From: Diplonema papillatum
Lineage: Eukaryota > Euglenozoa > Diplonemea > Diplonemida > Diplonemidae
Direction: 5' to 3'
Assembly: GCA_030068145.1 (NCBI GenBank)
Contig: JAPJBO010000051.1
Location: 321,501-385,500, forward strand
Length of the DNA: 64,000 bases
The notes beneath the pieces were generated by a model, which did not search any database, was not told where the DNA came from, and worked only from the letters and a program-made list of their open reading frames with translations. The stretch's first letter is position 1. Each line of letters opens with the position of its first letter. The position numbers were made by a program, and so were the translations under genes. Positions 9,130 to 51,940 of the stretch are shown one piece after another.

Positions 9130-9425
9130 GTCCTCACACATTGCATGTGGTGCCGTTTCGCCTGTACGAGACTCCAAGTTTTACAGGAGTGAGGCATCGT
9201 CTTTTTATCGTGCCAACTCAACTGCGCGGTACCGAGAGTTCAAGGTCCAAGGCAGTTACAACTTTGATCGCTTGGAGTTCAGCAACTTGGTCTACCGCAG
9301 CTTTTGGTACTTCGACAGAATCTGCGCCGCCGCGACGTCCTCGGTGCCGCCTTCGATCGCGTAGATGGGGCAACTGTACCCCTTCAGGACCTCGTCGCAT
9401 TTCCACATGTACGGGACACCAAGCT
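9130..9425 (-). pseudogene. Partial copy of adenylate kinase exon 2 (3' part), copy 1
   Basis: Closely matches the 3' part of the intact exon at 9650-9940, including the end of the coding region. It lies downstream of the real stop in gene sense, so it is untranslated or intergenic. Confidence 0.8.
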
Positions 9426-9650
9426 TCGCCGGAGTGAGGCATTCACTGTGTATTTTTCATGTCAACTCAACCGTGCTGTACCGTGGGTTCAAGGCCGTCA
9501 CAAGCTTGCTTGGAGTTCAGCAACTTGGTGATGTAAATTTACTTCGACAAAATTTGCGCTGCTGCGACGTCCTCGGTGACGCCATCGATGGCATAGCCTC
9601 GAGCATGTGCACCTCTTCAGGATTCCGTCGCCTTTTCGCATGTAGAGCAT
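9426..9650 (-). pseudogene. Partial copy of adenylate kinase exon 2 (3' part), copy 2
   Basis: A more diverged copy of the same 3' segment with small deletions. With 9130-9425 and the functional segment it forms three head-to-tail copies. Confidence 0.7.
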
Positions 9651-9777
9651 GTGCACCTCTTCAGGATTCCGTCGCCGTTTCGCCTGTACGAGACTCCAAG
9701 TTTTACAGGAGTGAGGCATCGTCTTTTTATCGTGCCAACTCAACTGCGCGGTACCGAGGGTTCAAGTTCCAAGGCAG

Positions 9778-10219
9778 TTACAACTTTGATCGCTTGGAGT
9801 TCAGCAACTTGGTCCACCGCAGCTTCTGGTACTTCGACAGAATCTGCGCCGCCGCGACGTCCTCGGTGCCGCCTTCGATCGCGTAGATGGGGCAGCTGTA
9901 CTCCTTCAGGACCTCGTTCGCGTTCTGCATGTACGTGTCATAGCGCTTGACGATGGCTTCCGCGGTGTCGTCGGGCCGCTGGATCACTTTAACGCCCGGC
10001 GGCGGCGGGCGGTGCGTCGCGTGGTACACTTTGTTCGTCGCCGGGTCGACCCGGCGGCCGGCAATCCTGCTCACGACCTCTTCCCGCGAGACTTCGAGCT
10101 TCATCACGGCTTGGGGCACGATGCCCTCGTCGCGCATCATCCGCGCCTGCACCGCGGTGCGGGGAAACCCGTCCAGCAACCACCCGTGCTGCCGAGCGTC
10201 CGGCTCCGACAGCCGCTTT
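9778..10219 (-). CDS. Adenylate kinase exon 2
   Basis: Starts after CTTCTGCAG with one base completing Lys and runs to a TAA at 9778. It is the only copy that keeps the whole LID and C-terminal region. The branch region CTCTAACTC lies about 30 bases before the splice site, inside RepA-type sequence. Confidence 0.87.
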
Positions 10220-13200
10220 CTGCAGAAGGTTGGTTTTTACTGAGTTAGAGTTCGCTTGGGACCCCGGGATTTTAGAGTCTCCGGGTGCCTTTTTGTCGAA
10301 TGGGTTCTTTTAAAGCTAATGCGTACTGGGTGGGTTTGGGGGGGGGGGGGGGGGGGTTTGCAAGAACGTGCTTGGAATGGGTATGTGCTCAACACCGCAC
10401 TGGTCCCGTCTGCGCCGTGTTTCGGTCCTTTAAGCCACGGACACATAAGGCGGACCATCATCAGCGCGGAACCTGAGTGTCTGCAGACAGGACTGCGGTG
10501 TGAGTCTGGTTTGTCAGGCGGCTGTTCGTAGCTCGTCACAGCCAGGACCACCCGTGCTACTAGAGCACAGGCGAATCCGTCACGGGGAGAAGGCCCCTAC
10601 AACCGTGTCTGAGCAATCAGTTAAAAAACTCAGGGCACTCGCCCTGATTGTGACTGCGACTCGCTAGGCAGCACTGACTTGTCTTCTCGGTGGGTTTCGG
10701 GGGGGGGGGTTTGCAAGAACGTGCTTGGAATGGGTATGTGCTCGCGTTCTGCACGTACGTGTCGTAGCGCTTGACGATGGCCTCCGCGGTGTCGTCGGGC
10801 CGCTGGATCACTTTAACGCCCGACTTTGTTCGTCGCCGGGGTCGACCCGGCGGCCGGCAATCCTGCTCACGACCTCTTCCCGCGGGACTTCGAGCTTCGT
10901 CACGGCTTGGGGCACGATGCCCTCGTCGCGCATCATCCGCGCCTGCACCGCGGTGCGGGGAAACCCGTCCAGCAACCACCCGTGCTGCCGAGCGTCCGGC
11001 TCCGACAGCCGCTTTCTGCAGAAGGTTGGTTTTTACTGAGTTAGAGTTCGCTTGGGACCCCGGGATTTTAGAGTCTCCGGGTGCCTTTTTGTCGAATGGG
11101 TTCTTTTAAAGCTAATGCGTACTGGGTGGGTTTGGGGGGGGGGGGGGGGGGGTTTGCAAGAACGTGCTTGGAATGGGTATGTGCTCAACACCGCACTGGT
11201 CCCGTCTGCGCCGTGTTTCGGTCCTTTAAGCCACGGACACATAAGGCGGACCATCATCAGCGCGGAACCTGAGTGTCTGCAGACAGGACTGCGGTGTGAG
11301 TCTGGTTTGTCAGGCGGCTGTTCGTAGCTCGTCACAGCCAGGACCACCCGTGCTACTAGAGCACAGGCGAATCCGTCACGGGGAGAAGGCCCCTACAACC
11401 GTGTCTGAGCAATCAGTTAAAAAACTCAGGGCACTCGCCCTGATTGTGACTGCGACTCGCTAGGCAGCACTGACTTGTCTTCTCGGTGGGTTTCGGGGGG
11501 GGGGGTTTGCAAGAACGTGCTTGGAATGGGTATGTGCTCGCGTTCTGCACGTACGTGTCGTAGCGCTTGACGATGGCCTCCGCGGTGTCGTCGGGCCGCT
11601 GGATCACTTTAACGCCCGACTTTGTTCGTCGCCGGGGTCGACCCGGCGGCCGGCAATCCTGCTCACGACCTCTTCCCGCGGGACTTCGAGCTTCGTCACG
11701 GCTTGGGGCACGATGCCCTCGTCGCGCATCATCCGCGCCTGCACCGCGGTGCGGGGAAACCCGTCCAGCAACCACCCGTGCTGCCGAGCGTCCGGCTCCG
11801 ACAGCCGCTTTCTGCAGAAGGTTGGTTTTTACTGAGTTAGAGTTCGCTTGGGAATCCGGGATGTTAGAGTCACCGGGTGACGTTTCGTCGAATGGGTTCT
11901 TTTAAAGCTAATGCGTACTGGGTGGGTTTGGGGGGAAAATGTTTCTTGGGTTTGAAGAGCGCGTGGTGCTTGCACCACTGAGGCCAGGTTATTTAACCGC
12001 GGATTTAGTGAAGGATTGTTCAGGAAACGGTCGCGAGCGAAACCCGACCAGGTAACGACCATTTCACTGTCTTCTTTGTTTTGTGATGCGAACATCACGA
12101 GGTGCTGTCCGAAGACACCGCCCACGTGAGCACTGTTAAGCAGCGGTTGCCAGATACTCCCGTAGCACCTATTCACGGGTTTGCAGGGGTAAAAAGGAAG
12201 CCCGGGTTGGGGAGGGTGGTGGGTTTGGTGCGTAGTATTCTTCTTTTTTTGTTCTTTCTCGGTTCTGGTGGTGCTGCTCCTTCCTTCTCGTCCTGTGTTG
12301 GGTTACGACTTTTTTTGTTCTTTATCGGTTCTGAGCGTTTCCATATGCCTTTTCCTGGGAGGGAAAGGAGGGGGGGGGGGGGCATGTATGGCTTCTTTCG
12401 TGTAAACTTTAGGAGCTATAGTTTTGTGCTATTTTCTGCAGATGCTTTTTTTTAGACTGTTTCGAGTTTTAAGGGTCCGTGTTTTTGTGTCTGCGGTCAA
12501 GGCCGGGTTGGTGTTCTTTCTTTTGGGTGTGGGTATTGCTGCAGAGTGCTATTTTAGCTCTTTTAGTTGTCGAGGCGTTTCGTACGCCTTGACCAAGGGT
12601 TTAGCCGAGGAAAGATAGTACGTGCGCCGGCGCGTGGCGAGACTGGAGGCAGCAGTTAAAGTTCGGGCGAAGCTAAGTTCGGGCAATGCTAAGTTCTGGT
12701 GAAGCTAAGTTCGAGTGATGCTAAGTTCGGGCGTTGCTAAGTTCTGGTGCTAAGCGCTCGCACAGGCTGCGCTGGTACTAAAAAAAAGTTCGGGCACGAA
12801 GCGAAGTTCGGCCAGGGTGGTAAAGTCCGGGTGAAGCCAAGGTCGGTGCTCGTGCCCACCCCTCGGGCCCACCGAGCACGGGTAAAGTTTGGCGCTCGTA
12901 CCCGGGTGGGGCGCCCCCCCGCCGGCCCTCTCCCGGGGCGACGGGATGACCCAAATACCGCGAGATACTGAGAAACTCCGCAGTAGTAGTAGTAGTATGT
13001 GTCGTCTGCCGAGGCAGCCGGAGACATCAGGCGCAGGGGGCAGGTCTTGCTTTACAACTATCTTCTTCATGGAGACCCGCCCCCGGCAATCCCGACTGTC
13101 CAATCACTGTCAAGAAAGGTTTGTGCCCTATAGTGATGAGGTGGTTGACCAGGCCCCCACGAAGCCTTATACACAACACGGCTACAAGATACTGAGAAAC

Positions 13201-15487
13201 TCCGCAAAAAAACGCAAATTTCGGGCACATTAGACCCCGGAACGCAACAAACCTCGAAAACAATCCCCGACCGGAAAAATGTCATGGGCGGCGGGCCACC
13301 ATGCCCGAAGGCCTTCGCCCAACCACTCTGCCACCGGTACGCATATTGGTAGGGGAGGAAAAACCTAGCTCCGCACTATAATCCAGTCCAAAAACAATAC
13401 ACTTTTTTACTGGAGAAAAGTGGGGTTGGCTCGAATAGAGGCTATTCACATTGCATGTTCATAGGACCTCCAGTCTCGAGATATTATGTAGCTTTGTTCT
13501 AAGGTTCCCACTGTTTCTTGTAACAAACGCGTTCGTTAGTGCCGCACCTCCTTCGACCTGTTTTCTTGATTCAATGGGTGAGCGAGGATAATACGCTGCC
13601 ATCGATCGATTTTCTGGACAAAATGCGTTTGCTAGTCAGATGTCTGTTGTGTATCACAACATGGCAGGTTCCAACGCTGCTAACTATCGTTTTTGAACTG
13701 AAACGTCCACGGCGTGATACGTTGTTTCCCCCGTTTGTTCTTCGCTTACACCACACCGTGTATCACTCAGGACTTTTACATAAGCGCCAGCTTGAAAGAA
13801 AATGCTCGACGATGCTGCCCGACAAAGAACAGAAGGGATCCCAAGTGCTGTAACTACCGAACCTCGTGTTGAACGGACGTGATGTCATGCGGGTCTACCC
13901 CTACACGACAAATCACACAAACACAACAGGTCAAAAGTCTGGACGGAGAAAGCAACACACGGTGGTGTAAGCGAAAAACGAATCAGAGAGAGAGAGAGAG
14001 AGACGAGTTAGAGAATACAATACAAATCATTGTGTTTGTATTGTATTTGCCCCTTACCTCTATATGTCCCCCCTTCCATTCGGAGTCGAAGCAGCTTCGT
14101 CGAGTATTTTTTCCCCTGTTGTGTTTGTGTGTCCGGTCGTGTAGGCCGCCTGACTTCACGTCCGTTCAATACGTGTTTCGGTAGCCACAGCACTTGGGAT
14201 CCCTTGAAAGGACCCTAAAAGGACCCTAAAAGACCCCTGTGTTGCCGGAAAAAGAGGGGCCCCCAGCAACCCAAAACTCGAAACCTACCACTCGGGTGGT
14301 CCTGAAATGCTCGGGAAATCCAAAATAAGTGGTCGGATGCTCGATAGGCTGAAAGAATGGCTGCAGAATGCAAAAACAAGGCAGAATCACGTCCACAAGG
14401 CAAATCCTTCGAGCATTTCCTTCCAAGCTGGCGCTTTATGTAAAAGAAGAACATTTCCGGAGTTGGGGCTTGCACTGATAAACGAAGCAACGGACGATCA
14501 GCATCAACTGACCAAAGGTGATACAGGGTATAAACCTCTCTGGGGGGGGTTTCCGGTATTAGCACTTTTTCGTTGGCTTCGTTTTCTCTTTCATGTGCAA
14601 CCGTTGTTCCGGAAAATGTTCCCATCAGTACAGATGTACTATTAACCACATACGGACGGAGGGGGGAGTGGGTTAATCTGGGAAGAAGGGACTTTTTTGG
14701 GTAAGCCTCAGGTCATACTCAGAGGGGGTGGGGGAGATGGGTCAGAAATAGGAACCGAGGGGCGCATATTGCTGCCCGACGAAGGTCGCAGTTGAAAGAC
14801 CTGTGCCATAACGTTCCAATAAAACAAACGACGGCCACTTTCGATGAGTATTTGGCTTCGTACATGCTCACGGGAATACTCTTATATTAAACGACGCATA
14901 TATGCGTCGTTCGTCCGTATGTGGTTAAGAAAAAAACGCATACTTGACGATAGCGATGACGAGCTCATCGCTATCGTCGTCGCTATCGTTGATCGGGGGG
15001 GGGTTTTCCGGTATTAGCACTTTTTCGTTGGCTTCGTTTTCTCTTTCATGTGCAAACCGTTGTTCCGGAAAATGTGCCCGTCAGTACAGATGTACTACTA
15101 AGAAAAAAACGCATACTTGACGATAGCGATGACGAGCTCGTCGGGGACGAGGCTGCCATCCTTCATGAACGCGGCCACCTGCTTGCCGACGCTTGTGCCG
15201 TTTTTGACCTCCGTCCGCAGCAGGTCGCCGGTGCTGATGTGCACTACCCCCAGGTGCCGGACGAGCTTTTCGCACTGCGTGCCCTTCCCTGATGCGGGGG
15301 GCCCCTTGATGACCAGCTTCGGCTTCGGGACGCTTTTGACGAACCTATCGACGAACTCCAGCGGGTCGTCTGGCTTCTCGGTGCGCAGGCGGTCCTGCAG
15401 CGCCTCTAAGAAGTACGGCATCTGGTGCACGTGCAGGTATTCGTCGTCTTTGGGCAGTGGTTTCGTGGAGTGCCGCATCCTCGACAT
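9778..15487 (-). CDS. Adenylate kinase with N-terminal extension (two exons)
   Basis: Join of exon 1 (15487-15117) and exon 2 (10219-9778), about 270 residues. It transfers phosphate between ATP and AMP to balance adenine nucleotides. Residues 1-55 (beginning MSRMRHSTKP) resemble the RIIalpha/Dpy30-like helices seen before AK domains in flagellar or AK5/8-type proteins. The P-loop GPPASGKGT is at about 62-70, then STGDLLR, the AMP-site motif WLLDGFPRT and the LID segment GRRVDPATNKVYH. Splicing CGTCAA|GTATGC to CTTCTGCAG|AAAGCGG restores AAA/Lys in frame and yields continuous AK sequence. The ATG at 15487 is preferred because the frame upstream is RepA sequence. The 4.9-kb intron holds two decoy copies of exon 2, a TTAA element and other repeats. 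Which AK isoform is unclear; the fold assignment is strong. Confidence 0.88.
10360..10545 (+). repeat. RepC dispersed repeat
   Basis: Contains GTGCTTGGAATGGGTATGTG and CGGTCCTTTAAGCCACGGAC, followed by GTGTCTGCAGACAGGAC. Other copies are at 11156-11340, 33889-34030 and 53768-53938, with fragments at 16905, 17918 and 34812. Confidence 0.9.
10744..11015 (-). pseudogene. Decoy copy of adenylate kinase exon 2 (5' part), copy 1
   Basis: Keeps the 3' splice site CTGCAG and the first about 270 bases. It lacks about 30 bases in the LID region after ACGAACAAAGT, which shifts the frame, and stops after CAGAACGCGA, where unrelated repeat follows. It cannot replace exon 2, but its splice acceptor is intact. 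Confidence 0.85.
11156..11340 (+). repeat. RepC dispersed repeat (in second 796-bp unit)
   Basis: Near-identical to the copy at 10360-10545, as part of the tandem duplication. Confidence 0.9.
11540..11811 (-). pseudogene. Decoy copy of adenylate kinase exon 2 (5' part), copy 2
   Basis: Same structure and same internal deletion as the copy at 10744-11015, so the whole 796-bp unit was duplicated after the damage. Confidence 0.85.
11920..12352. repeat. RepD dispersed repeat, copy 1
   Basis: About 420 bp nearly identical to 46908-47335, starting GGGGGGAAAATGTTTCTTGG and ending CATATGCCTTTTCCTG. There is no open frame of note. The two copies lie in introns or spacers of different genes 35 kb apart. 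Confidence 0.92.
12353..13189. other. Spacer with short tandem repeats
   Basis: From 12655 to 12760 a roughly 18-20 bp motif (GCTAAGTTCGGGC and variants) is repeated. The rest is GC-rich with short homopolymers; no gene is supported. Confidence 0.5.
13190..13490 (-). repeat. tRNA-like dispersed repeat, copy 1
   Basis: Matches 58978-59286 over about 300 bp. On the minus strand the core carries TGGCAGAGTGGTTGG, a good RNA polymerase III A box. The B-box part has decayed to GGCATGGTGGCCCG. Flanks end ATTGCATGTTCATAGGACCT on the plus strand. Confidence 0.7.
13775..14168. repeat. RepE dispersed repeat, copy 1
   Basis: Matches 48838-49135, from ACATAAGCGCCAGCTTGAAA through GGTCTACCCCTACACGACAA to GAGTCGAAGCAGCTTCGTCG. 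It contains a GA microsatellite (13987-14004) that the other copy lacks. A reverse copy of its left end lies at 14398-14440, so it may have inverted termini. Confidence 0.85.
14543..14985. repeat. Duplicate of the adenylate kinase exon 1 boundary
   Basis: 14543-14641 and 14926-14960 match 14996-15125, which includes the end of exon 1 and its GTATGC splice site. The copy is split by the TTAA element at 14646-14924. Within it ATCGCTATCG and its reverse complement alternate. Confidence 0.85.
14646..14924. mobile_element. TTAA-flanked small inverted-repeat element
   Basis: A 279-bp insertion flanked by TTAA on both sides, with terminal inverted repeats CCACATACGGACG / CGTCCGTATGTGG. The neighbouring duplicate (15090-15112) lacks it and gives the empty site. 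TTAA duplications are typical of piggyBac-type elements. It has no coding capacity, so it is a MITE. An internal palindrome ACGACGCATATATGCGTCGT lies near 14891. Confidence 0.82.
15117..15487 (-). CDS. Adenylate kinase exon 1
   Basis: 371 bases from ATG TCG AGG to CGTCAA|GTATGC. Encodes the N-terminal extension, P-loop and AMP-binding helices. RepA begins within ten bases upstream of the ATG, so a 5' untranslated exon or a trans-splicing acceptor may lie in that repeat. Confidence 0.88.
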
Positions 15488-15494
15488 CTTTTTT

Positions 15495-18186: not shown

Positions 18187-19933
18187 CTAACATTCCATCC
18201 TCTTTACTGCCTTTTGACGTGTCTTCTGGGCCATTTCGCGTGAAATTGCAGCCCGAGGGGCCTTACCATGAAGGTGCACGGTTTCCTCAGCGCCTTGACA
18301 CCTGAAAGGTTCGGTGTGTCGGCTGCCAGCGAAAGGATAAAATCCACAGCCATTTCGAGTGAAATGGCAGCGTCGATCACTCGGACGGGCGGCGCGCTGG
18401 CCAGGACGGCAGGTTGCGAAAGACGGTTGCGGCTGCGTGCAGACCCTTGAACAGCTGCTGCGTAACGACAACCCCTGGAACCTACATTGCCTTCAGGACA
18501 ACGCAACGAAGACAAGCTTCTCGAAGCAGCTTTTTCCGGCATCACAGATGCACGGTCTCCTCAGCGCTCTGCTCATTCAGTGCCCAGTTCCTAGCCTCGA
18601 GGGCATCCACTGTACCTGCGAGCGCCTTGATACCCGAAAGGTTTGGTGTGTCGGCTGCCAGCGAGAGGATGGAATCCACGGCCATTTCGAGTGAAATGGC
18701 AGCCCCGGGGGCTTGGAACAGACGGTCGAGCACTCGGACGGGCGGCGCGCTGGCCAGGACGGCAGGTTGCGAAAGACGGTTGCGGCTGTGTGCAGACCCT
18801 TGAACAGCTGCTGCGTAACAACAACCCCTAAAACCTACGTTGCCTTCAGGACAACGCAACGAAGACAAGCTTCTCGAAGCAGCTTTTTCCGGCATCACAG
18901 ATGCACGGTCTCCTCAGCGCTCTGCTCGTTCAGTGCCCAGTTCCTAGCCTCGAGGGCATCCACTGTACCTGCGAGCGCCTTGATACCCGAAAGGTTTGGT
19001 GTGTCGGCTGCCAGCGAGAGGATGGAATCCACGGCCATTTCGAGTGAAATGGCAGCCCCGGGGGCTTGGAACAGACGGTCGAGCACTCGGACGGGCGGCG
19101 CGCTGGCCAGGACGGCAGGTTGCGAAAGACGGTTGCGGCTGTGTGCAGACCCTTGAACAGCTGCTGCGTAACAACAACCCCTAAAACCTACGTTGCCTTC
19201 AGGACAACGCAACGAAGACAAGCTTCTCGAAGCAGCTTTTTCCGGCATCACAGATGCACGGTCTCCTCAGCGCTCTGCTCGTTCAGTGCCCAGTTCCTAG
19301 CCTCGAGGGCATCCACTGTACCTGCGAGCGCCTTGATACCCGAAAGGTTTGGTGTGTCGGCTGCCAGCGAGAGGATGGAATCCACGGCCATTTCGAGTGA
19401 AATGGCAGCCCCGGGGGCTTGGAACAGACGGTCGAGCACTCGGACGGGCGGCGCGCTGGCCAGGACGGCAGGTTGCGAAAGACGGTTGCGGCTGTGTGCA
19501 GACCCTTGAACAGCTGCTGCGTAACAACAACCCCTAAAACCTACGTTGCCTTCAGGACAACGCAACGAAGACAAGCTTCTCGAAGCAGCTTTTTCCGGCA
19601 TCACAGATGCACGGTCTCCTCAGCGCTCTGCTCGTTCAGTGCCCAGTTCCTAGCCTCGAGGGCATCCACTGTACCTGCGAGCGCCTTGATACCCGAAAGG
19701 TTTGGTGTGTCGGCTGCCAGCGAGAGGATGGAATCCACGGCCATTTCGAGTGAAATGGCAGCCCCGGGGGCTTGGAACAGAAGGTCGAGCACTCGGACGG
19801 GCGGCGCGCTGGCCAGGACGGCTGGTTGCGAAAGACGGTTGCACAGCTGCTGCGTAACAACAACCCCTAAAACCTACGTTGCCTTCAGGACAACGCAACG
19901 CAGACAAGCTTCTCGAAGCAGCTTTTTCCGGCA
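18187..19933 (-). pseudogene. Tandem partial copies of the unknown gene's exon 3 (353-bp unit)
   Basis: Five head-to-tail copies (boundaries near 18545, 18898, 19251 and 19604) of the 3' part of exon 3, including its stop codon. Each has an internal deletion that joins the segment for GLHTAAT to that for VLASAPPVRV. The leftmost is most diverged and the two middle copies are almost identical. They lie downstream of the genuine stop at 19934, so they are probably untranslated. Confidence 0.9.
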
Positions 19934-20916
19934 TCACAGATGCACGGTCTCCTCAGCAATCTGCTCGTTCAGTGCCCAGTTCCTAACCTCGAGGGCATCC
20001 ACTGTACCTGCGAGCGCCTTGATACCCGAAAGGTTTGGTGTGTCGGCTGCCAGCGAGAGGATGGAATCCACGGCCATTTCGAGTGAAATGGCAGCCCCGG
20101 GGGCTTGGAACAGACGGTCGAGCACTCGGACGGGCGGCGCGCTGGCCAGGACGGCGGAGGCCAGCTGCAGGTACTCCGCGCGCGGAAGGACGAGCAGGTT
20201 GCGCTGCGACGCGAAGACCGTCGCGGCCGTGTGCAGGCCCTTGACCAGCGGCTGCGTGACCACCACGTCCCACGACGCGCCGAGCAGCAGCGCGCACGCG
20301 TCGACGGGCAGCCCTTCGAACTCACCCAAAGCCCCGGAAAAATGCGCCAGAAGCGGCTTGAAAAACTTCCCCGGAAAACAGTCCGTCGCCGTGTGGACGG
20401 CGGCCGCCTTGAGGACGGGCGTGTCCAACCCCAGGATTTTGTCGGGGGGTGCGCGGGTGAGCCCGCGGGTGTAGAGGAAGCAGGCACGCGCGCAGTCGAG
20501 CCCGAGGGCCCCCGCGTCGAGGTGCAGCAGGTCTACCACCAGCCGGACCCGGGGGTGGTCGTTCCGGTGGTGGTGGCACGCGGTGAGGAGCTCTGCCAGG
20601 CGGACCTGTGCGGCGTGCCGGTCGCCGGACTTGTCCCACAGGACCTGCCGGACGAAGTCCGAGCAGTGCGTGCTGTCCGGGGGCAGCGGCGCACCCCGCT
20701 GGTCGCAGGCCTCCTCCAGAGTGACCCGGTCCTGGATCACGTGCTCCAGCAGCGGCAGCAGCCACGAGCCGAGGCTCCGCAGCTCGACCTTGCCCGCCGC
20801 CCGGACGTCCGAAAAGTGGACCTTGAACGCGTCGGGCACCACGGCGGCGACCTGTGTTCCCGCCAGCTCCTTCTCTGCGGGCTGCTTGCGCGCGTGAAGG
20901 CAGGCGGTGTCCAGAC
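19934..20916 (-). CDS. Unknown coiled-coil protein, exon 3 (terminal)
   Basis: Starts after CCACCCACCACAG; two bases complete Gly with the previous exon. Open for 326 codons to TGA at 19934. A G/C run and RepA lie just upstream. Confidence 0.75.
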
Positions 20917-35287: not shown

Positions 35288-36070
35288 TCAGCCGGCGCGC
35301 GTGGAGTACTTCATCTTCTCGGCCTTCTGCACGACTTGCTCCGCCACCGGCAGGCCCTTGCGCCGGCGGACCTTGTTGATGAGGGTGAGCGGCACGTTCG
35401 CGATCAGCGCCACGTCGTTTTCGTCCAAGTCCTCGAGCTCGTCTTCGGTCTGCCGGACGAAGTACGGGTCCATGTCGATGGTGTGCCAGTGCGAGAAGAC
35501 CACGTTCGGCGTCGCCATGCCGCTGGTTTTGATGCGAAGTTCGTCGGTCAGCCCAAACGACTCTGCGACGGGCAAGCTCGCGATGACAGTGAACGCCTCG
35601 GATCCTTCGATCGGGAGGTTGTCGAGGATTTCGCACCGCCGCTTCTTCAGCACCTCGTACACCTTTCCGTGGCAACTGTTCGCCGCCATGATGCTGCACT
35701 CGTAGATCGGCTCCACGAGTCGCTTTCCCTCGTTCATGAACGCTTGCCGGCAACCGGTGCAGATCGTCGACATCACCTGCCCGGACAGCAAGCCGGCTGA
35801 TGCGGCGGTGGTTTTCACGTCTTCGACGACGAAGCAAACACCGCTCATCGGCTCGTCGCACATCGGCCCCTTGTCGCACGCGAGTTGGAACCCGGCCACG
35901 ATCGAATCATTCAGCTGCCTGAGCAGTCGCTTTTTCGTTTCGCCGGTGCTCGAAGCGTCGGACCGGGCGTCCTCCTCCACCGCACCCGCCGTCTCGTCGG
36001 GCGCGGACGCCGCCGCGGGAGGTGCCGCGGCCGGCGGGGCGCATGGGGCTTCGGGCGCCGCTTGCCGCGC
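35288..36070 (-). CDS. EFL1: EFL1 exon 3 (C-terminal)
   Basis: Starts after CAAAAAAAAACAG with an Ala/Pro-rich linker, then domains IV-V; ends in TGA at 35288. A RepA variant (AGCGAACTTTAACCC on the minus strand) touches the splice acceptor. Confidence 0.88.
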   Translation of the reverse strand, partial: ARQAAPEAPCAPPAAAPPAAASAPDETAGAVEEDARSDASSTGETKKRLLRQLNDSIVAGFQLACDKGPMCDEPMSGVCFVVEDVKTTAASAGLLSGQVMSTICTGCRQAFMNEGKRLVEPIYECSIMAANSCHGKVYEVLKKRRCEILDNLPIEGSEAFTVIASLPVAESFGLTDELRIKTSGMATPNVVFSHWHTIDMDPYFVRQTEDELEDLDENDVALIANVPLTLINKVRRRKGLPVAEQVVQKAEKMKYSTRAG

Positions 36071-39000: not shown

Positions 39001-41272
39001 GAGCCGGCCGGAAAAAATGCGGGCCATGCCGACGAACGAGGTGCCGGGGGCGCCCTCCTCGGCTTCCACCTCGACGTTGCCCTGCAGCGCGGTGCCGGGC
39101 AGGACGTCGATGTCTAGCATCTTCGCAATGTACACCATCGGGGTGCCGTCGGGGTCGCAACTGGTCAGGCCCTCCTTCGTGAGGCGTCGCACGTCTGTGG
39201 GTGCAGAAAGAACGTAGGTTTGGAGAAGATGAAATTCTTAAGTCCCAGTAGGGTCACAAAGGATACCCAGTGAATACGGTGGGTATGAAGACACACAGTA
39301 CACAGACACTGTAGCAGACACTGAAAGTATGCCACGCTGACGCAGCCCACACAAGTAGATAACTGTACTATAAGAGACACTGTACTAGACACGGATAACA
39401 AGCATGCTAATGCAGGCGTAGACAGTGTAGCTCATACGGTCCTATAAGAGTACGCTGGATTTTCAGAGACACTGTGGCATCACTGGCATCAAGACACGCT
39501 GACACTGACACACACACACAGACACAGACACAGTGTCAGAGTAGTAGATGCTGAAAATGAGCCAACGCACATTACTTTACGGTGTCCGGCTGCCCCGGCT
39601 TGTGCTTCGGGTAGAGGACGTCCGCGGCGTCGCCGACGCGGAGCCGGCCGGAAAAAATGCGGGCCATGCCGACGAACGAGGTGCCGGGGGCGCCCTCCTC
39701 GGCTTCCACCTCGACGTTGCCCTGCAGCGCGGTGCCGGGCAGGACGTCGATGTCGAGCATCTTCGCAATGTACACCATCAGGGTGCCGTCGGGGTCGCAA
39801 CTGGTCAGGCCCTCCTTCGTGAGGCGTCGCACGTCTGTGGGTGCAGAAAGAAAGTAGGTTTGGAGAAGATGAAATTCTTAAGTCCCAGTAGGGTCACAAA
39901 GGATACCCAGTGAATACGGTGGGTATGAAGACACACAGTACACAGACACTGAAAGTATGCCACGCTGACGCAGCCCACACAAGTAGATAACTGTACTATA
40001 AGAGACACTGTACTAGACACGGATAACAAGCACTGTGGCATCACTGGCATCAAGACACGCTGACACTGACACACACACACAGACACAGACACAGTGTCAG
40101 AGTAGTAGATGCTGAAAATGAGCCAACGCACATTACTTTACGGTGTCCGGCTGCCCCGGCTTGTGCTTCGGGTCGAGGACGTACGCGGCGCCGCCGACGC
40201 GGAGCCGGCCGGAAAAAATGCGGGCCATGCCGACGAACGAGGTGCCGGGGGCGCCCTCCTCGGCTTCCACCTCGACGTTGCCCTGCAGCGCGGTGCCGGG
40301 CAGGACGTCGATGTCGAGCATCTTCGCAATGTACACCATCGGGGTGCCGTCGGGGTCGCAACTGGTCAGGCCCTCCTTCGTGAGGCGTCGCACGTCTGTG
40401 GGTGCAGAAAAAAAGTAGGTTTGGAGAAGATAAGATTCTTAAGTCCCACTAGGGTCACAAAGGATACCAAATAATAAGACACGCTGATGCGGCGTAGAGT
40501 GTAGTTCATACGGTACTATACACATGCGGAACGTGCGGAAACGGTCCAAAAAGGAGAGTAGTAGTAGTATGCTTGAACTGTTATGCAGCAACAATCTGTG
40601 ACGATAGACTGCACAAGCCGCTACAGACTACCTCTTTGCACGCGTCGTGTCATGCTTCGGTCGCTTCTTGCCCCGCGTACTGTTTGTCTCCGGCGCACGC
40701 TTCACGTCCGATGTGCATGAGTGTTTGATGACGGCCAGTCTGTCCATCTCCCGATACTCCGGGATTTGGTTGCATGGTGGGACGAGGGCGAGTCAGGTCG
40801 ATGGGCTGATACCCAGGCATGGAGCGCGGGGCGTTCCAGGGCGGGACCTCCGAGAGAGACTGAGCCAGGCGCCCGAGCTCGGACCCGGGGCCCCTTCGAG
40901 GAGGCTGCGGGGCAGAAAGATCCAGCAGTGGGGGTACGCCTGCAGACAAGGCAGACCCCCGCTCGAGCTGGAGCCCTCGGGGGTATGATCCTGGACGACA
41001 GGCCGGGTGCGGGAGGGGGAAAATACTCGAGGGGCTGCCTTGTGCTAACTTCGAAGGAGGCTAGACTGGAGGGAGAAAGAAAACAACTGCAAAGTGGGTC
41101 TTTTTTGTTGAACGCTTACGCCCGCCACTGAACCCAGATTCACCTGTGTTTCGTGTGGTGCTACAGCACATTTCCCTCCTTTGATCTTTTGCAGCTGGCA
41201 GCCTCCTCAAGTATTTCCTACAAAGCAGGTGCTTACAGTGCTCCCGCTAAGGAAAACCCCGGGGGAATTCCT

Positions 41273-47300: not shown

Positions 47301-50300
47301 TTATCGGTTCTGAGCGTTTCCATATGCCTTTTCCTGCTTTGACATGCAGTCCCTTCCAAACTGTACCTCTCTTGGTGTTCGGGGGTTGGGCCGTATGGTA
47401 ACGTCTCGGGAAACGAAGTTTGTGGCGTCACAAAAGCGACAGGTTGCCAAAGCAACCGGGTGCCGAGCTTAAGCAAGGCGTTTGTCAATGGAGAACCAGT
47501 CCTGTGCCGTTTTAGGGCCGGCAGGTCTCAACGGGGGGAAAACCTGGGACACCCGCCCCCATCTTGGGGGGGAAAATCTTAGTTAGAGGGGGGGGCCAAT
47601 TACAATTGAGTTCAATTGTAATATAACGATACACGGCGTGGAATTGGGGGGTCTCAGACCCCCCCAAAAAACAATAGTGTATTACAATTGAAGTGCAGCT
47701 TGCCTGTTAGAAACACGTTGTTGTCGTGACTAAATGACACAGTCACGGTGACAGTGTGAGTACAATGCAACTCCGAGCAAAAACTGAAGGGAAAACCTTC
47801 ACACAACAAGCACCGGGTCGGAAAATAACCAACTGGTGCATGCCGTGGGTGTCTCCACCAACACCTGGGAAGACTCCTGCCAAGACTCTTGGGAAGAGAG
47901 TACCCTAACTTGGGCCTAAGGTTCACTTTTTCTGGGGGTTGCTCAGTATCAGAGTTTCCAACAGCATGGCGACCGCAGTCCGACGAACTTACTGCTTCTC
48001 TTTTTGGACAGAGAGCGCTGGCGGCAGACGGGCACCACCGATAAATCTGGGGCTAACAAGATGTCCCATCCGATAGGCCATCGCCCCCATGCCGGGCCAC
48101 GGTCACGATTGGCAGTGTCTCCGGCTGGCTCCGAAGCTCAACTCCGGAGCTGGCTCAGCAGCTCCGGAGCCACCGCCACACTGCGATTGCCTGCCCATTG
48201 CCATGTTTGTGCTTCATGATCCCCCGCACACAGCCAGCTCCAAGACTTTGGCACGAGCAACGGCATCAGCGACATCATCATGTAAAAACCTTAGGAAGCC
48301 CCGGGTTTGGAATGCACACCAAAACCTCGTTTTGGAGGTCCAACATGACTTTTCCAAAAAAGCCGAAACGAAAACGGCCCTGAAACCGCCTCACTGGCTG
48401 GCTCACACTCAGCCGTACAGTAACATTACAATTCAGTTGTATTATACGGCTGGGATGCGCCGATTCCCCGAAAAAAAAGTTCAATTGTATTATACGTCCT
48501 TTTGTGTGGAAGAGAGGTCCTTCTGTGTGGGGGAGAGGTCCTTCTGGGTGGGGGAGAGGCCCACTTTCGTGAAAGGGACGCCTTCTTGGTGTGAGTCGTT
48601 GGTTGCTCGCATAGCTGGCCGAGGCCCTCGTTCGCGTAGCCGAGCCTTACACCGGCTTTCACAGGCGGGAGCAGGCGAAGAGGGAGGCGGCAGTCCCTCT
48701 TCTTTTCTACTCTTCTTTTTTTGTGTACACACCCAGTGCTCCCGCTTACCTCCGAAATGCAGGAGGAAAAAGCCTAAATCAGGAAAAGCTTTTTTTTTTT
48801 TTGGAGCGCGGGACACTGTACTTGCCTTTTTTTTTTTTTTACATAAGCGCCAGCTTGAAAGGAAATGCTCGACGATGCTGCCCGACAAAGAACAGAAGGG
48901 ATCCCAAGTGCTGTAACTACCGAACCACGTGTTGAACGGACGTCAGGTCATGCGGGTCTACCCCTACACGACAAATCACACAAACGCAACAGGTCAAAGT
49001 CCTGAGTGAGAAACCAACACACGGTGGTGTAAGCGAAGAACAAAACAGATTGTGTTTGTATTGTATTTGCCCCTTACCTCTATATTTCCCCCCTTTCATT
49101 CGGAGTCGAAGCAGCTACGTCGAGTATTTTTTCCTGTTGACAACTTGTCGTCAGACTACTGGGGGGAGCGACCTTTTTCTTTTTGAAAGTATGCTAATAC
49201 TGCAGGGAATAGTTAACAAGACCTCTTGAGTTTGTGCTAGCCACGAATTGGGGGTCGGAAGAACCTACAAAGCCAATAGCAGGACCGGCCCCCATCTCGT
49301 ACAGGAAGGCACCACGTTAAAACGGGTCCGCAACACACACACACACATACACACACACACACACGGCATACCTGGGTTGGTGATGAGCGGAAGGTCTGGG
49401 ATGAGGCGGGACATGCGGTATTGCTGGGCTTCGACCGGCGAGGGGAGCATGGTCACGGCGGTGTCCATCATCTTGCGGGACAACGGAAGCCACGCGTTCA
49501 TGACGGCGGCGACCGCGTTTTCGGGCGTCAGCTTGCGGAGGACGTTCTCCTTCACTTTGAGGCCGAGCGCGTCTGTCATCTTGAGGAGCTTGAGGACCCG
49601 CTCTTCGCTGTTCTTCTCGCGCATGGTTTCGTAGACGCGCCAGATCTGCTCGAGGACGAGCTTGACACAAAGCGGAGACGCGTGGGCCCGCGGCGGCTTG
49701 CGCGTGATCTTCTTCTTCTTCTGGTCGAGGTACCACTCGCCCCATAGCGCCTTTACGAGCGTGTTCTCTTTCCAGCCCATTTTCCGCGCGTACGCGACCG
49801 CGAAGTCCTTCGTCGTGAACCCCCAGCCGTCCACCGACGACGCGAAGACGACATTGCCCTTCGACGGCTCGAACCAGCCTTCTTCGATCTCCTCGTCGAG
49901 TTCGTCGGTTCGCGCGTTCTCGGCTTCCAGCTGAGCGCCGGTGATACGGTCGGCGGCGACGAATTCAGCCATCAGCACGTTCGCGTTCTGGATGATCTCA
50001 GCGAGCATGTGGTAGATGACGTCGGGGTCCCTCTGCACGGAGGTGAACAGCAGGTCGATCTTGTTGATGACCAGGCAGCACTTGACCTTCTCCTTGTACG
50101 CCTGGTGCAGCACCGCGCGCGTCTGCGTCGCCACGCCGTCCACGGCATCCACCAGCAGGAACGCGCCGTCACTCAGCCTCACCGCCGTGCTCACCTCACA
50201 CGAAAAGTCGACGTGCCCAGGGGAGTCTATGAGGTTGAGGCAGTACGCAACCCGGTCGAGGGTGTGCCGGAGCGCGATCGTCGACGCCTTCATCGTGATC

Positions 50301-50503
50301 AGCTTCTGCTGCTCGTCCTCCCGGCAGTCGAGGTACCGCACCTTCCCCGCCAGCGCCGTGCTGATGACGCCGTTGCTCGATATCAACACATCGGACAGAG
50401 TCGTTTTTCCGTGGTCCACGTGCGCCAGCATGCAGAAGTTGCGCACCTTCGTCGGATCCTTCGATATCTCGAGGATGCGACGAGAAGCTTCGACATCGTT
50501 CAT
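35288..50503 (-). CDS. EFL1: EFL1/Ria1-type ribosome-biogenesis GTPase (three exons)
   Basis: Join of 50503-49372, 38556-37481 and 36070-35288, about 995 residues; known EFL1 proteins are about 1,000-1,100. EFL1 is the EF-2-like GTPase that, with SBDS, releases eIF6 from pre-60S subunits. Exon 1 has AHVDHGKTT (27-35), DSPGH (93-97) and NKID (147-150). Exon 2 has domains II-IV (CDPDGTPMVYIAKM, STAGEVHAERC, SEPLVSFRET). Exon 3 has domain IV-V (GKVYEVLKKRRCEIL, LPVAESFGLTDELR, FSHWHTID, VRRRKGL). AACCCAG|GTATGC joins CACAG|ACGTG to give Asp in frame. The exon 2/3 junction (AAATTG|GTGTGG to AACAG|GCGCGG) is less sure. The 10.8-kb intron 1 holds the pogo-like element and three exon 2 decoys. Confidence 0.9.
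36074..36150 (+). repeat. RepA variant plus poly-G run
   Basis: GGTTAAAGTTCGCTTGAGAA, TTAGAGTCTCCGG and a run of about 24 G. Confidence 0.85.
36151..36660. other. EFL1 intron 2, unassigned part
   Basis: Strings GTGCGTATCG and GTGCTTGTGCGTG recur from 5360 and 4570. A diverged RepA start (TTGAAAGTTCGCTTGATAAT) follows at 36668. No coding frame is supported. Confidence 0.4.
36766..37030 (-). pseudogene. Partial copy of EFL1 exon 2 (3' part)
   Basis: Identical or nearly so to 37390-37655, including the exon end, its 5' splice site and the first bases of intron 2. It starts at GGCAGATACGAAGG. Located downstream of exon 2 in gene sense. Confidence 0.9.
37076..37265 (+). repeat. RepA dispersed repeat
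   Basis: Full start AGAGTTAAAGTTCGCTTG, ending TACATTCCTTCG. It precedes (gene sense) the exon 2 partial copy, with CTTTAACTC about 50 bases before GGCAG. Confidence 0.92.
37266..37480. other. Start of EFL1 intron 2
   Basis: TTCTACAAAGCAGGTGCTTA near 37270 matches one end of RepB. From 37384 leftward copies are shared with 36760-36860. Confidence 0.5.
37481..38556 (-). CDS. EFL1: EFL1 exon 2
   Basis: 1,076 bases from TGCACCCACAG|ACGTG to AAATTG|GTGTGG. It carries domain II, III and the start of IV. It is the only full copy; three 5' partial copies follow at higher coordinates. Confidence 0.9.
38943..39194 (-). pseudogene. EFL1 exon 2 decoy (5' part), copy 1
   Basis: Acceptor CACAG and the first about 250 bases of exon 2, then a break at GGACACC followed by GTAAAGTAATG, which happens to look like a 5' splice site. 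The frame stays open. Confidence 0.9.
39583..39834 (-). pseudogene. EFL1 exon 2 decoy (5' part), copy 2
   Basis: As copy 1 with one or two substitutions, and the same break. Confidence 0.9.
40144..40395 (-). pseudogene. EFL1 exon 2 decoy (5' part), copy 3
   Basis: The first decoy met by the spliceosome in gene sense. Same acceptor and break; a GTCG/GCCG change gives Asp to Gly. Confidence 0.9.
40573..40614 (+). repeat. Single diverged unit of the 42-bp satellite
   Basis: GAACTGTTATGCAGCAACAA then TCTGTGACGATAGACTGCAC matches the unit of the array at 1-3127 with about four changes. Confidence 0.85.
40615..41009. other. Unassigned part of EFL1 intron 1
   Basis: The minus strand has a 99-codon Pro-rich frame (40650-40949) after a good acceptor TTGTCTGCAG, with NAPRSMPGYQPIDL-type sequence. 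It might be a fragment of an exon from another gene, but no family is recognised and no partner exon is found. Confidence 0.3.
41010..41240 (-). repeat. RepB dispersed repeat, inverted full copy
   Basis: The reverse complement matches 15838-16080 closely. Confidence 0.88.
41241..42190. other. Unassigned part of EFL1 intron 1
   Basis: Poly-A run (41274-41303), the palindromic CCGGAGGAATTCCTCCGG, then about 800 bases with only short frames. I see no gene. Confidence 0.45.
42550..44487 (+). CDS. Pogo/Tigger-like DDE transposase (frameshifted)
   Basis: About 645 residues from ATG at 42550; the frame is open from 42481. The N-terminal half has helix-turn-helix-like DNA-binding segments (GRPSTLRKKETAILLELIE, WARKWCRKHNYVRRR). 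The DDE core shows LNCDHTAALFMP (first Asp), WFLLLMDRFTGQ (second Asp) and GGWTSVLQPMDITV (third Asp), as in pogo-like transposases. An acidic tail follows. Near 44405 the reading frame shifts: the plus-one frame continues the acidic tail and a zinc-binding end to 44669. The present product thus ends with an unrelated short tail. It lies within EFL1 intron 1, on the opposite strand to the host gene. Confidence 0.82.
   Translation: MSLKRLADEVEQSLPQNAPQKKRGKYSSWEERDLLEIGELVARLGLTGGMQKWNSMPGKKKVSCATATRARTLYGKNNSIVHALGGSRGEPIDVDEPKAKRGRPSTLRKKETAILLELIERKRTNGAAVTYSLVSVLAQTVARTTGLPVIESELGIEWARKWCRKHNYVRRRATTSRVLDETQTEQKKEEMRSAVHALMEQHDIPQSCVLNCDHTAALFMPSPTATLAPKGARDVRIGYMGDKRSVTVVTGGAADGTPIPYQVIFAGKTSRVIPQVADTKGFHLTQTPNKWANTATTKQYIDCVLGPFRLRRIAELRLPETQWFLLLMDRFTGQTGEEVQELLEQAHFKTHYIAGGWTSVLQPMDITVHGPLKSRLREKFSLWYARQLSAALRRQRRRLQRAQGADPASDVAIAHGALVSVDTRTRTMRPLVLQWLMEAHESITAQTIKNGFRFLFPHVFLATKTSCVVGAVVCVCLAFVEESNLLFPAIDVDLVLPPPIFDVDVVGAAVEREMLMAIDVDADEDARENGEDDRELMPAVEGHRPAPEVGNPAVAEESRAEGENDCELVPEAELANDSLTSIKPQSVNQQDIAAIMTAFRVLEIAGNDESNDYASSNDRTTPTRLMTTRTAGLTRRFPPPKTLLR
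44405..44669 (+). pseudogene. Out-of-frame C-terminal zinc-binding tail of the transposase
   Basis: In the frame displaced by one base: acidic DETDDDEDSG, then Cys pairs in CPRNGC, CSTC, CASC and CSTC, ending in TAG at 44667-44669. Four CxxC-type pairs suggest a small zinc-binding domain. A one-base loss between AACGATCG and TACGACTC would explain the split. Confidence 0.7.
45165..45440. repeat. Degenerate CCTGGACAG/CCAGACAGT array
   Basis: Short units of 9-27 bp (GACAGCCTGGACAGACCAGA) in many variants. Long frames on both strands are artefacts of this repeat. Confidence 0.85.
45507..45913. repeat. Spaced direct duplication (about 135 bp, two copies)
   Basis: 45507-45640 and 45779-45912 match, from AAACACCGCAACGGAGCAGG to CTGAACTCAGGCTGCAT. 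Confidence 0.9.
46706..46907. other. Unassigned intron segment
   Basis: Poly-A followed by purine-rich sequence; no feature recognised. Confidence 0.4.
46908..47335. repeat. RepD dispersed repeat, copy 2
   Basis: Near-identical to 11920-12352; only a few substitutions over about 420 bp. Confidence 0.92.
47336..48837. other. Unassigned part of EFL1 intron 1
   Basis: Contains GGGGGGAAAATCTTAGTTAG (47570), a GGGGGGTCT-C-AGACCCCCC hairpin (47647-47665), and short inverted strings ATTACAATTGAGTTCAATTGTAAT near 47595 and around 48430-48500. From 48500 a CTTCTGTGTGGGGGAGAGGT motif repeats three times. No gene is supported. Confidence 0.45.
48838..49135. repeat. RepE dispersed repeat, copy 2
   Basis: Matches 13775-14168 without the GA microsatellite. 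Confidence 0.88.
49185..49300 (+). repeat. RepF dispersed repeat, copy 2
   Basis: Matches 21462-21590. Confidence 0.8.
49331..49365. repeat. CA microsatellite at the EFL1 5' splice site
   Basis: (CA)n begins directly after the GTATGC donor of EFL1 exon 1 (GTGTGTGTG in gene sense). Confidence 0.9.
49372..50503 (-). CDS. EFL1: EFL1 exon 1 (GTPase domain)
   Basis: 377 codons plus one base from ATG AAC GAT at 50503 to AACCCAG|GTATGC. Two GTG/TGT codons extend the frame upstream, but CAG|TAGCGGG there looks like an acceptor, so a non-coding first exon is possible. Confidence 0.9.
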
Positions 50504-50757
50504 GTCTTTCCCACACACCCGCTACTGCTCAAAAAAGACAAAAAAGATGGCGCAAGTATCGCTAAGCTCGCTTGGAGAGTCCGGTACTTTTGACGGACCC
50601 CCCTCCCCCTTTCCCTTCTTTTTCCCGCGCTTTTATTTTGCTTTGCCTGAGAGATGTGTGTGCTTGAGAGAGAGAGAGAGAGACGGAGAGAGTTTTCTAA
50701 ACGGTTGTTCAAGATGAACAGGTCTGTGCAAAGGGGGGTAAGGGGGGTAGGCACGGT

Positions 50758-50997
50758 GTGCCGGAGCGCGATCGTCGACGCCTTCATCGTGATCAGCTTC
50801 TGCTGCTCGTCCTCCCGGCAGTCAAGGTACCGCACCTTCCCCGCCAGCGCCGTGCTGATGACGCCGTTGCTCGATATCAACACATCGGACAGAGTCGTCT
50901 TTCCGTGGTCCACGTGCGCCAGCATGCAGAAGTTGCGCACCTTCGTCGGATCCTTCGATATCTCGAGGATGCGACGAGAAGCTTCGACATCGTTCAT
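50758..50997 (-). pseudogene. EFL1 exon 1 copy 1 (5' part)
   Basis: Start codon through ...TIALRHT with the GTPase P-loop, then a break at CGGCACACC. The frame is open but leads into repeat. Confidence 0.9.
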
Positions 50998-51235
50998 GTC
51001 TTTCCCACACACCCGCTACTGGCGCAAGTATCGCTAAGCTCGCTTGGAGAGTCCGGTACTTTTGACGGACCCCCCTCCCCCTTTCCCTTCTTTTTCCCGC
51101 GCTTTTATTTTGCTTTGCCTGAGAGATGTGTGTGCTTGAGAGAGAGAGACGGAGAGAGTTTTCTAAACGGTTGTTCAAGATGAACAGGTCTGTGCAAGGG
51201 GGGGTAAGGGGGGTATGAGGTTGAGGCACGGTGTG

Positions 51236-51472
51236 CCGGAGCGCGATCGTCGACGCCTTCATCGTGATCAGCTTCTGCCGCTCGTCCTCCCGGCAGTCGA
51301 GGTACCGCACCTTCCCCGCCAGCGCCGTGCTGATGACGCCGTTGCTCGATATCAACACATCGGACAGAGTCGTTTTTCCGTGGTCCACGTGCGCCAGCAT
51401 GCAGAAGTTGCGCACCTTCGTCGGATCCTTCGATATCTCGAGGATGCGACGAGAAGCTTCGACATCGTTCAT
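51236..51472 (-). pseudogene. EFL1 exon 1 copy 2 (5' part)
   Basis: As copy 1, with minor substitutions and the same break. Confidence 0.9.
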
Positions 51473-51744
51473 GTCTTTCCCACACACCCGCTACTGCCGT
51501 CTCTCTCTCTCTCTCTCAAGCACACACATCTCTCAGGCAAAGCAAAATAAAAGCGCGGGAAAAAGAAGGGAAAGGGGGAGGGCGGTCCGTCAAAAATACC
51601 GGACTCTCCAAGCGAGCTTAGCGATACTTGCGCCATCTTTTTTGTCTTTTTTGAGAGAGTTTTCTAAACGGTTGTTCAAGATGAACAGGTCTGTGCAAGG
51701 GGGGGTAAGGGGGGTATGAGGTTGAGGCAGTACGCAACCCGGTG

Positions 51745-51940
51745 TGCCGGAGCGCGATCGTCGACGCCTTCATCGTGATCAGCTTCTGCTGTTCGTCCTC
51801 CCGGCAGTTGAGGTACCGCACCTTCCCCGCCAGCGCCGAGCTGATGACGCCGTTGCTCGATATCAACACATCGGACAGAGTCGTCTTTCTGGTCCATGTG
51901 CGCCAGCCTGCAGAAGTTGCGCACCTTCGTTCATGTCTTT
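51745..51940 (-). pseudogene. EFL1 exon 1 copy 3 (5' part, decayed)
   Basis: Has lost about 55 bases near the start codon and several bases in the P-loop region, so it is the oldest or least constrained copy. Confidence 0.85.

Follow-up and report, generated by a model that had tools for sequence, protein, structure and literature searches.

Half-exon copies around Diplonema papillatum exons: very probably a product of ordinary local tandem duplication

Results

Partial exon copies in the window

The window, the whole 64,000-nucleotide stretch of Diplonema papillatum DNA analysed here, contains 24 partial copies around 8 exons of three genes, 11 upstream and 13 downstream of the intact exon, and we consider it very likely that frequent local tandem duplication, together with the geometry of such events, explains half-exon copies of this kind in D. 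papillatum. The copies were identified by a per-exon scan, requiring E ≤ 1e-5 and a minimum of 18 exon nt, combined with self-alignment of the window, which between them recovered every copy listed in the original prediction at the adenylate kinase (AK), coiled-coil and EFL1 exons. A match to the flank of AK exon 1 at 37046-37262 was dropped from the count as a dispersed repeat. The EFL1 of the window is matched by the database EFL1 protein of D. papillatum (P0001) in tblastn; EFL1 is a ribosome assembly GTPase, and the organism a marine flagellate. The exon borders of the coiled-coil gene are inferred from reading of the sequence, without homology support. The features are as follows (nt, position within the exon).

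AK gene
15117..15487, minus strand: exon 1, intact; ADK Pfam match, ends read from sequence and per-exon scan
14926..14970, minus strand: exon 1 3' end with donor, downstream copy; 97.8% over 45 bp, offset 173
9778..10219, minus strand: exon 2, intact; ADK Pfam match
10742..11315, minus strand: exon 2 upstream copy 1 (nt 1-302 of 442), acceptor and upstream flank; 94.2% over 603 bp
11538..11935, minus strand: exon 2 upstream copy 2 (nt 1-302), with acceptor; 90.2% over 427 bp
9375..9644, minus strand: exon 2 3' part, degenerate downstream copy; 71.9% over 288 bp
9152..9413, minus strand: exon 2 3' part with stop, downstream copy; 95.8% over 263 bp

Coiled-coil gene
31586..32339, minus strand: exon 1, intact (borders inferred); open frame, donor read
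32630..33066, minus strand: exon 1 upstream copy 1 (nt 1-348 of 754); 97.7%
33424..33815, minus strand: exon 1 upstream copy 2 (nt 1-348); 94.4%
30683..31287, minus strand: exon 1 3' part with donor, downstream copy; 92.4% over 618 bp
30641..30684, minus strand: exon 1 44-bp scrap, downstream, reaching neither edge; 81.8%
29103..29663, minus strand: exon 2, intact (borders inferred, within 2 bp); sequence reading and per-exon scan
30571..30642, minus strand: exon 2 5' part, upstream copy; 88.9% over 72 bp
28711..28917, minus strand: exon 2 last 18 nt with donor and intron, downstream copy; 94.7% over 209 bp, offset 206
19935..20917, minus strand: exon 3, intact (borders inferred); sequence reading and per-exon scan
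18289..19822, minus strand: exon 3 3' part, five tandem downstream copies; per-exon scan

EFL1 gene
49372..50503, minus strand: exon 1, intact; tblastn of P0001, 100%
50755..51278, minus strand: exon 1 upstream copy 1 (nt 1-243); 92.8% over 552 bp, residues 1-82 of P0001
51230..51497, minus strand: exon 1 upstream copy 2 (nt 1-243); 99.6%
51715..51930, minus strand: exon 1 upstream copy 3, distal (nt 52-276); 93.3%
37481..38556, minus strand: exon 2, intact; tblastn of P0001, 100%
38935..39494, minus strand: exon 2 upstream copy 1 (nt 1-260), with acceptor; 99.3%
39575..40032, minus strand: exon 2 upstream copy 2 (nt 1-260); 96.4%
40136..40468, minus strand: exon 2 upstream copy 3 (nt 1-260); 97.9%
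36762..37032, minus strand: exon 2 3' part (nt 893-1076) with donor, downstream copy; 100% over 271 bp
35288..36073, minus strand: exon 3, intact (acceptor within 3 bp); tblastn of P0001, 99.2%
34575..34819, minus strand: exon 3 degenerate downstream copy (nt 409-696 of 786, without stop); 80.3% over 289 bp

The original prediction held that upstream copies keep the 5' part of the exon and downstream copies its 3' part. This polarity applies to the 20 of 24 copies that reach the exon edge expected for their side, while none reaches the wrong edge. Four copies stop short of both edges: in EFL1, the distal copy of exon 1 and the copy of exon 3; in the coiled-coil gene, the 44-bp scrap of exon 1 and the fifth copy of exon 3. 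The EFL1 exon 3 copy had been listed among those keeping the 3' part, donor or stop, and this description has to be corrected, as the copy comprises nt 409-696 of 786 and lacks the stop. The edge-reaching blocks are in direct orientation, as simple tandem duplication predicts, cross exon-intron borders and sit in existing introns or flanks. Their offsets are a multiple of 3 for 5 of 18 values. As listed, the exon-edge blocks make up 5,077 of 27,226 intron bases across five introns (18.6%), and the introns are thus not "filled" with exon copies as had been proposed.

A head-to-tail arrangement without insert was found for the upstream copies of AK exon 2 and EFL1 exon 2 and for the downstream copies of coiled-coil exons 2 and 3. 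The AK array has a near-constant unit of ~796 bp, and the spacings in the coiled-coil exon 3 array (333, 353, 353, 353 and 332 bp) correspond to a near-constant 353-bp unit; four copies of that array comprise nt 763-983 with the stop and the fifth is cut, comprising nt 763-905. Inserts between copies were observed at the EFL1 exon 2 downstream copy and at coiled-coil exon 1, and also at a locus outside the window (C383). Not everything here is simple tandem duplication, as inverted pieces in the vicinity of EFL1 exon 1 show. The EFL1 copies came out the same when P0001 was mapped onto the window by tblastn; acceptors in EFL1 copies lie near 39835, 40396, 50997 and 51472. An extra short EFL1 exon in the exon 2 region was considered and rejected, P0001 passing directly from exon 2 to exon 3.

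The same AK copies occur in two redundant contigs (13-14 kb) at ~99.98% identity. In a redundant contig the exon 3 array is longer by one 333-bp unit, which speaks for tandem duplication. A reading of C2526 and C2647 as haplotypes was rejected in favour of redundant contigs, the genome being described as haploid in the D. papillatum genome paper (Valach et al. 2023, PMC10161547).

Recurrence and frequency outside the window

Outside the window, the same polarity was obeyed by 15 copies at ten loci (10/10 loci), although at two of these, L017 and L033, the case is marginal, with ~15 and ~31 coding bases copied. Two further pieces that reach neither edge were left out of this count, namely a lysine-rich copy in L026 (79.6%) and, in L015, a fragment of 66 bp. 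Pfam profile matches at C383, C18 and C507 establish that six of the 15 copies are coding, and the C18 copies are head-to-tail without insert. Edge offsets were a multiple of 3 in 2 of 14 cases. Conversely, the three clear internal coding arrays, at 225, 261 and 687 bp, are all in frame; in a fourth candidate (L015, 8956-10000) five of the listed offsets are multiples of 3 and one, 175 bp, is not. Short repeats (64-87 bp) inside the L017 frame were excluded from this count.

Local duplications are common, with 28 clusters in 16 unselected 10-kb regions, and local direct clusters outnumber inverted pairs by 28 to 6 in these 160 kb. Arrays remote from exons are frequent. Half-exon copies were found in at least 5 of the 16 regions, a lower bound drawn from eight frames picked by eye rather than from every cluster. 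Coding calls here were made with a codon score whose training set comprised AK, EFL1 and part of a polyprotein, and a Pfam scan of the test frames other than L032 and L033 returned no match in 9 of 10 (including L013, L015, L017, L023, L026 and L028).

A hand count in six protein families, two of them partly scored, gave in-domain copies at 3 of 118 gene loci, a candidate copy being defined by more than 20 overlapping profile positions within a locus. In the two partly scored families, where scoring covered 49/133 candidates (DEAD) and 70/105 (HSP70), weak copies may be missed. Only for HSP70 was a tandem array treated as a single locus; partial copies inside tandem gene arrays are indistinguishable from neighbours. 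The choice of families departs from the list set beforehand: PF00133 and PF00493 were added, small families being scored in full, while PF00225 and PF00004, and PF00009 as a later addition, do not enter the count. Adenylate kinase was left out, since AK had led to the window. Proteasome loci C970 and C859, with overlapping profile ranges, were rejected as copies, duplicated DNA being absent there. The original prediction had named genome-wide rarity as the outcome that would refute it, and this outcome is partly borne out: the feature does recur, but at a level far below the "nearly every exon" of that prediction.

A dispersed repeat lying before several exons was also considered as an intron-making element and rejected, most of its copies not being beside clear exons (3 of the first 20 of 100 places listed have a sense coding score ≥ 7 within ~420 bp).

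Discussion

Proposed mechanism

Repeated tandem duplication over exon-intron borders that leaves a single intact exon was the mechanism originally suggested and is still the best reading. In D. papillatum nuclear DNA, segments of ~0.1-1 kb would frequently be duplicated locally and in tandem, sometimes with junction inserts, probably through a replication- or recombination-based process. Where one breakpoint lies within an exon and the second in the non-coding DNA beside it, X[AB][AB]Y results, which always contains one intact exon and one half-exon; upstream, the half-exon is the 5' half with the acceptor, and downstream the 3' half with the donor or stop. The polarity therefore follows from the geometry of the event and needs neither an additional rule nor a special mechanism. 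Indeed, among enumerated uniform tandem duplications all 37,890 of 37,890 one-edge events comply, which is true by construction, and the events touching one exon divide into 76% one-edge, 19% internal and 5% whole-exon. One-edge duplications are presumably near-neutral, as the intact exon is retained and the half-exon, lacking one of two splice sites, would be poorly recognised. In-exon duplications would survive mainly when in frame, and whole-exon duplications would be rare since exons here mostly exceed the unit length. Some half-exon arrays may have expanded further afterwards.

Half-exons give a clean, countable trace of local tandem duplication: selection keeps the intact exon constant, and by comparison with it the breakpoint and age of each event can be read. 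Where a genome is rich in such traces, the rate of duplication, the length of its units and their position-dependent survival become measurable, which would test whether tolerance of half-exons reflects exon recognition that needs both splice sites. A passage of PMC12621601 describes D. papillatum as open to genetic manipulation. Annotators should be warned that D. papillatum introns contain convincing false exon starts and ends.

Alternative explanations

Active targeting of exon borders, with breakage or template switching via transcription or splicing signals making introns grow outward from exons, appears improbable. It would agree with the window itself, where duplication clusters cover 11 of 16 exon edges (5.3 expected with random placement, P 0.003) and 9 of 14 clusters lie at exon edges (4.6 expected, P 0.009), P values to be read with the window having been chosen post hoc for these duplications. 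However, the 16 unselected regions display no coding-edge excess, with 4 of 28 clusters touching edges against 6.4 expected at random (6 vs 7.75 and 3 vs 5.65 at other score cut-offs), and both the frequent arrays away from exons and the low count among family loci argue against it. The pervasive exon-border amplification of the original prediction is consequently not upheld. A more restricted version, in which exon edges are true hot spots in some gene clusters like this one (e.g. by transcription-coupled template switching), introns lengthening outward and half-exons accumulating as a lone acceptor or donor is not recognised as an exon, is unlikely, if less so than general targeting. The edge excess in this post hoc window may reflect some bias towards genes at the local scale.

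False tandem repeats from misplaced or collapsed reads might be suspected, as redundant contigs exist in the assembly and one differs by one additional 333-bp unit in the exon 3 array. Yet substitutions and indels separate copies from their sources (19 of 24 at 88%-99.6% identity, 4 lower and 1 identical), one copy contains a transposon-like insert with inverted ends, and three contigs share the AK structure, though possibly from shared reads. Long reads moreover span one such array elsewhere in the genome, as described in PMC10161547, and an artefact is very hard to credit. We assign a similarly slight chance to retroposition or repair patches having inserted exon pieces near their source, for which the unique or repeat-derived inserts separating some copies could be invoked. 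Random insertion should place 5' and 3' pieces equally on both sides, whereas the arrangement is tandem at 10/10 outside loci and in 20/20 edge-reaching window copies; furthermore, the copies include intron sequence and so did not come from mRNA. Selected functions as decoys or alternative exons, to which the acceptors kept by several upstream copies might point, are no more plausible: deletions or degeneration are evident in several copies, P0001 is built from intact exons only and skips all EFL1 copies, and the copies of one such array are reported in PMC10161547 to be missing from mature mRNA.

Relation to known systems

The window represents an unusually dense instance of a feature already reported for D. 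papillatum. According to the passages of PMC10161547 on these structures, the 5' region or the 3' end of a first exon is repeated in tandem in "dozens" of gene models, one of them with PacBio and RNA-seq support. The likeness is close, with the same genome and a 5' part upstream or an exon 3' end in tandem beside the gene; there, the 3' end of the first exon is copied in the first intron or 3' UTR and the 5' region upstream. Those passages concern gene ends or first exons, whereas in the window internal exons are affected too, on both sides. Relative to them, the present analysis adds the internal exons, the geometric explanation and the frequency estimates.

Tandem duplication across an intron-exon border is also described for the potato RdRp gene (PMC4974935), where the duplication is described as giving rise to a novel spliced intron and bringing in exonic sequence, whereas the D. 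papillatum copy remains in an existing intron or flank. Intron gain of the Rogers type is likewise a tandem duplication that leaves the protein unchanged, but the duplicated segment, which contains AGGT, is wholly exonic, and a new intron arises between its two copies. This arrangement was not seen among the edge-reaching window copies; in D. papillatum, existing introns lengthen.

Polar partial exon copies

The window is C51:321501-385500 of a 271-Mb assembly. Three minus-strand genes lie between its positions 9130 and 51940: an adenylate kinase (AK) gene, a coiled-coil gene and that of the ribosome assembly GTPase EFL1, the protein of which is the database entry 'Ribosome assembly protein 1 [Diplonema papillatum]'.

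Exons and intronic elements of the three genes
15487-15117, 10219-9778; minus; AK gene (Pfam ADK)
near 32339-31586, 29663-29103, 20917-19935; minus; coiled-coil gene, no assigned identity, borders by eye
50503-49372, 38556-37481, about 36073-35288; minus; EFL1
22449-25712; intronic element with RNase H match
42412-44487; intronic element with DDE endonuclease match

Scanning the eight exons, each with 300-bp flanks, against the window gave 24 partial copies after removal of one dispersed-repeat match; relative to the direction of the genes, 11 lie upstream of their exon and 13 lie downstream. The original prediction, that upstream copies keep the 5' part of the exon and downstream copies the 3' part, proved correct for the three genes: 20 copies lie on the named edge, the 5' edge being crossed, with the other end inside the exon, in 10 of the 11 upstream copies and the 3' edge in 10 of the 13 downstream ones, while the remaining four reach neither edge and none of the 24 crosses the wrong one. 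Copy identity ranges from 71.9% to 100%, with 19/24 at 88%-99.6%. The AK copy structure is present again in two redundant contigs, and one redundant contig carries an additional 333-bp unit in the coiled-coil exon 3 array. As the D. papillatum genome is described as haploid in PMC10161547, this extra unit is array variation in culture or an assembly effect.

The accompanying claim that the introns are filled with such copies was overstated, since exon-edge duplicated blocks in our own listing make up 5,077 of the 27,226 bp of five introns (18.6%), and other elements (RNase H, DDE endonuclease) are also present. The RNase H-like element (22330-26283) has split direct repeats at both sides (22330-22521 equals 25880-26071, and 25684-25879 equals 26088-26283, both at 100%), an arrangement reminiscent of PAT/DIRS-like elements. 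An insert of about 280 bp (14646-14925, by eye), with inverted ends ACCACATACGGACG / CGTCCGTATGTGGT, lies within the copied AK exon 1 block; the duplication therefore predates the insertion.

Geometry and selection

If a gene is written X-A-B-Y, with A within the exon and B within the flank, a tandem duplication would yield X[AB][AB]Y, in which one AB copy would remain attached to the exon remainder and the other would form a half-exon on the flank side, bearing the edge that faces that flank. The polarity is forced by tandem-duplication geometry. In a simulation that merely enumerates the geometric outcome, using unit lengths near the observed ones, events touching one exon were 76% of the one-edge half-exon type, 19% internal and 5% whole-exon; an array with just one complete exon is therefore the outcome to be expected. 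Selection is visible elsewhere, in internal arrays, where all three clear coding cases (units of 225, 261 and 687 bp) are in frame, unlike the offsets between intact exon blocks and their edge copies, which show no frame preference (multiples of 3 in 5/18 cases in the window and 2/14 outside). A fourth candidate internal array, in the genome stretch L015, has mixed offsets: five of those listed are multiples of 3, and another is 175 bp. At C468:73437-86084, 18 adenylate kinase domain matches, several identically scored, follow one another in tandem within one open frame of 4,528 aa; the spacings among eight domain starts are multiples of 3, and 6/7 are multiples of 687 bp.

Frequency outside the window

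Sixteen unselected 10-kb regions were taken at fixed positions from contigs picked by number (13 + 3). Direct repeats at offsets of 100-2000 bp formed 28 clusters spread over 12 of these regions, beside six inverted pairs, and covered a mean of 11.3% as against 32.6% of the window. At least five regions (L017, L023, L028, L032 and L033, two of them marginal) hold partial exon copies, a lower bound from eight frames looked at by eye, as do two non-random regions (L013, L015). There is no sign in the 16 regions that exon edges are targets of duplication: four clusters were found at coding edges vs 6.4 expected under random placement, and other cut-offs also fell below expectation (6 vs 7.75, 3 vs 5.65). 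A similar test on the window, itself picked for the feature, gave 9 of its 14 clusters touching an edge vs 4.6 expected (P 0.009).

Six protein families were surveyed by hand, a locus being scored if partial copies overlapped by >20 profile positions; the resulting 3/118 loci is a lower bound, as only edges within a domain are detected.

Loci with partial copies, by family
CCT chaperonin: 0/15
DEAD helicase (partly scored): 0/48
Proteasome: 0/15
Class I tRNA-synthetase: 1/5 (C383)
MCM: 0/9
HSP70 (partly scored): 2/26 (C18, three copies; C507, two)

Two proteasome candidates (C970, C859) were dropped as they lacked duplicated DNA. The DNA of C383, C18 and C507 confirmed upstream copies with the 5' part, the acceptor being retained in every C18 copy. 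Across ten loci outside the window, seven of which were called coding by codon score without Pfam support, all 15 copies agree with the polarity: 13 upstream ones hold the 5' part of the exon and two downstream ones the 3' part. None contradicts it, and two more pieces touch neither edge. In L028 the copied stretch begins at the presumed start codon, not beyond.

Mechanism and prior accounts

The structure itself establishes that tandem duplication of short segments is frequent. Its source could be replication template switching or unequal exchange; template switching is suggested by inserts at some junctions and by segments in inverted orientation close to EFL1 exon 1 (50528-50686 vs 51497-51655). 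Half-exons may be retained because neither a lone acceptor nor a lone donor would be defined as an exon, which agrees with the database EFL1 model, where every EFL1 copy is skipped, and with one comparable array reported missing from mRNA in PMC10161547.

Valach et al. 2023 (PMC10161547) is a prior account for D. papillatum: "dozens" of its gene models are described with tandem repeats of their 5' region or of the 3' end of a first exon, one of them backed by PacBio data. In a potato gene (PMC4974935), the duplication geometry is the same but the outcome there is a new intron. No published statement of the geometric rule or of a genome-wide frequency was found in the literature searched. The window feature is real, largely known in D. 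papillatum, ordinary in mechanism and unusually dense here; what is added is the reason why the polarity holds, examples at internal exons on either side and an initial estimate of how often the feature occurs.

Other repeats and loci

Five of the eight exon starts are preceded, at a distance of no more than about 100 bp and in gene sense, by a dispersed repeat with the end CGGAATTTCAAGCGAACTTTAACTCTA and an A-rich tail, two of these exons having variants of it.

Dispersed-repeat copies in the window
10234-10316, 15490-15709, 20993-21229, 32384-32549, 36074-36129; near exon starts
6545-6781, 37071-37262; further copies

This repeat has 2,880 genome matches with <=1 mismatch (reversed control, 0). 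Clear coding sequence just downstream was antisense in 0/20 copies fetched and sense in 3/20; by hand count among the first 100 matches listed, 63 of 79 neighbouring same-contig pairs share orientation.

A 42-bp satellite array occupies window positions 1-3124, and the preceding 10 kb (C51:311501-321500) is filled by an array reading as the same satellite. Four ribosomal RNA gene fragments, three small and one large subunit, lie at 4937-5051, 7678-7802, 16121-16369 and 54720-55030; about 3,600 scattered 28S pieces are mentioned for the genome in PMC10161547. At C79:145245-146940, an HSP70-like locus has its inner part on one strand and both ends on the other, as would result from inversion of a segment.
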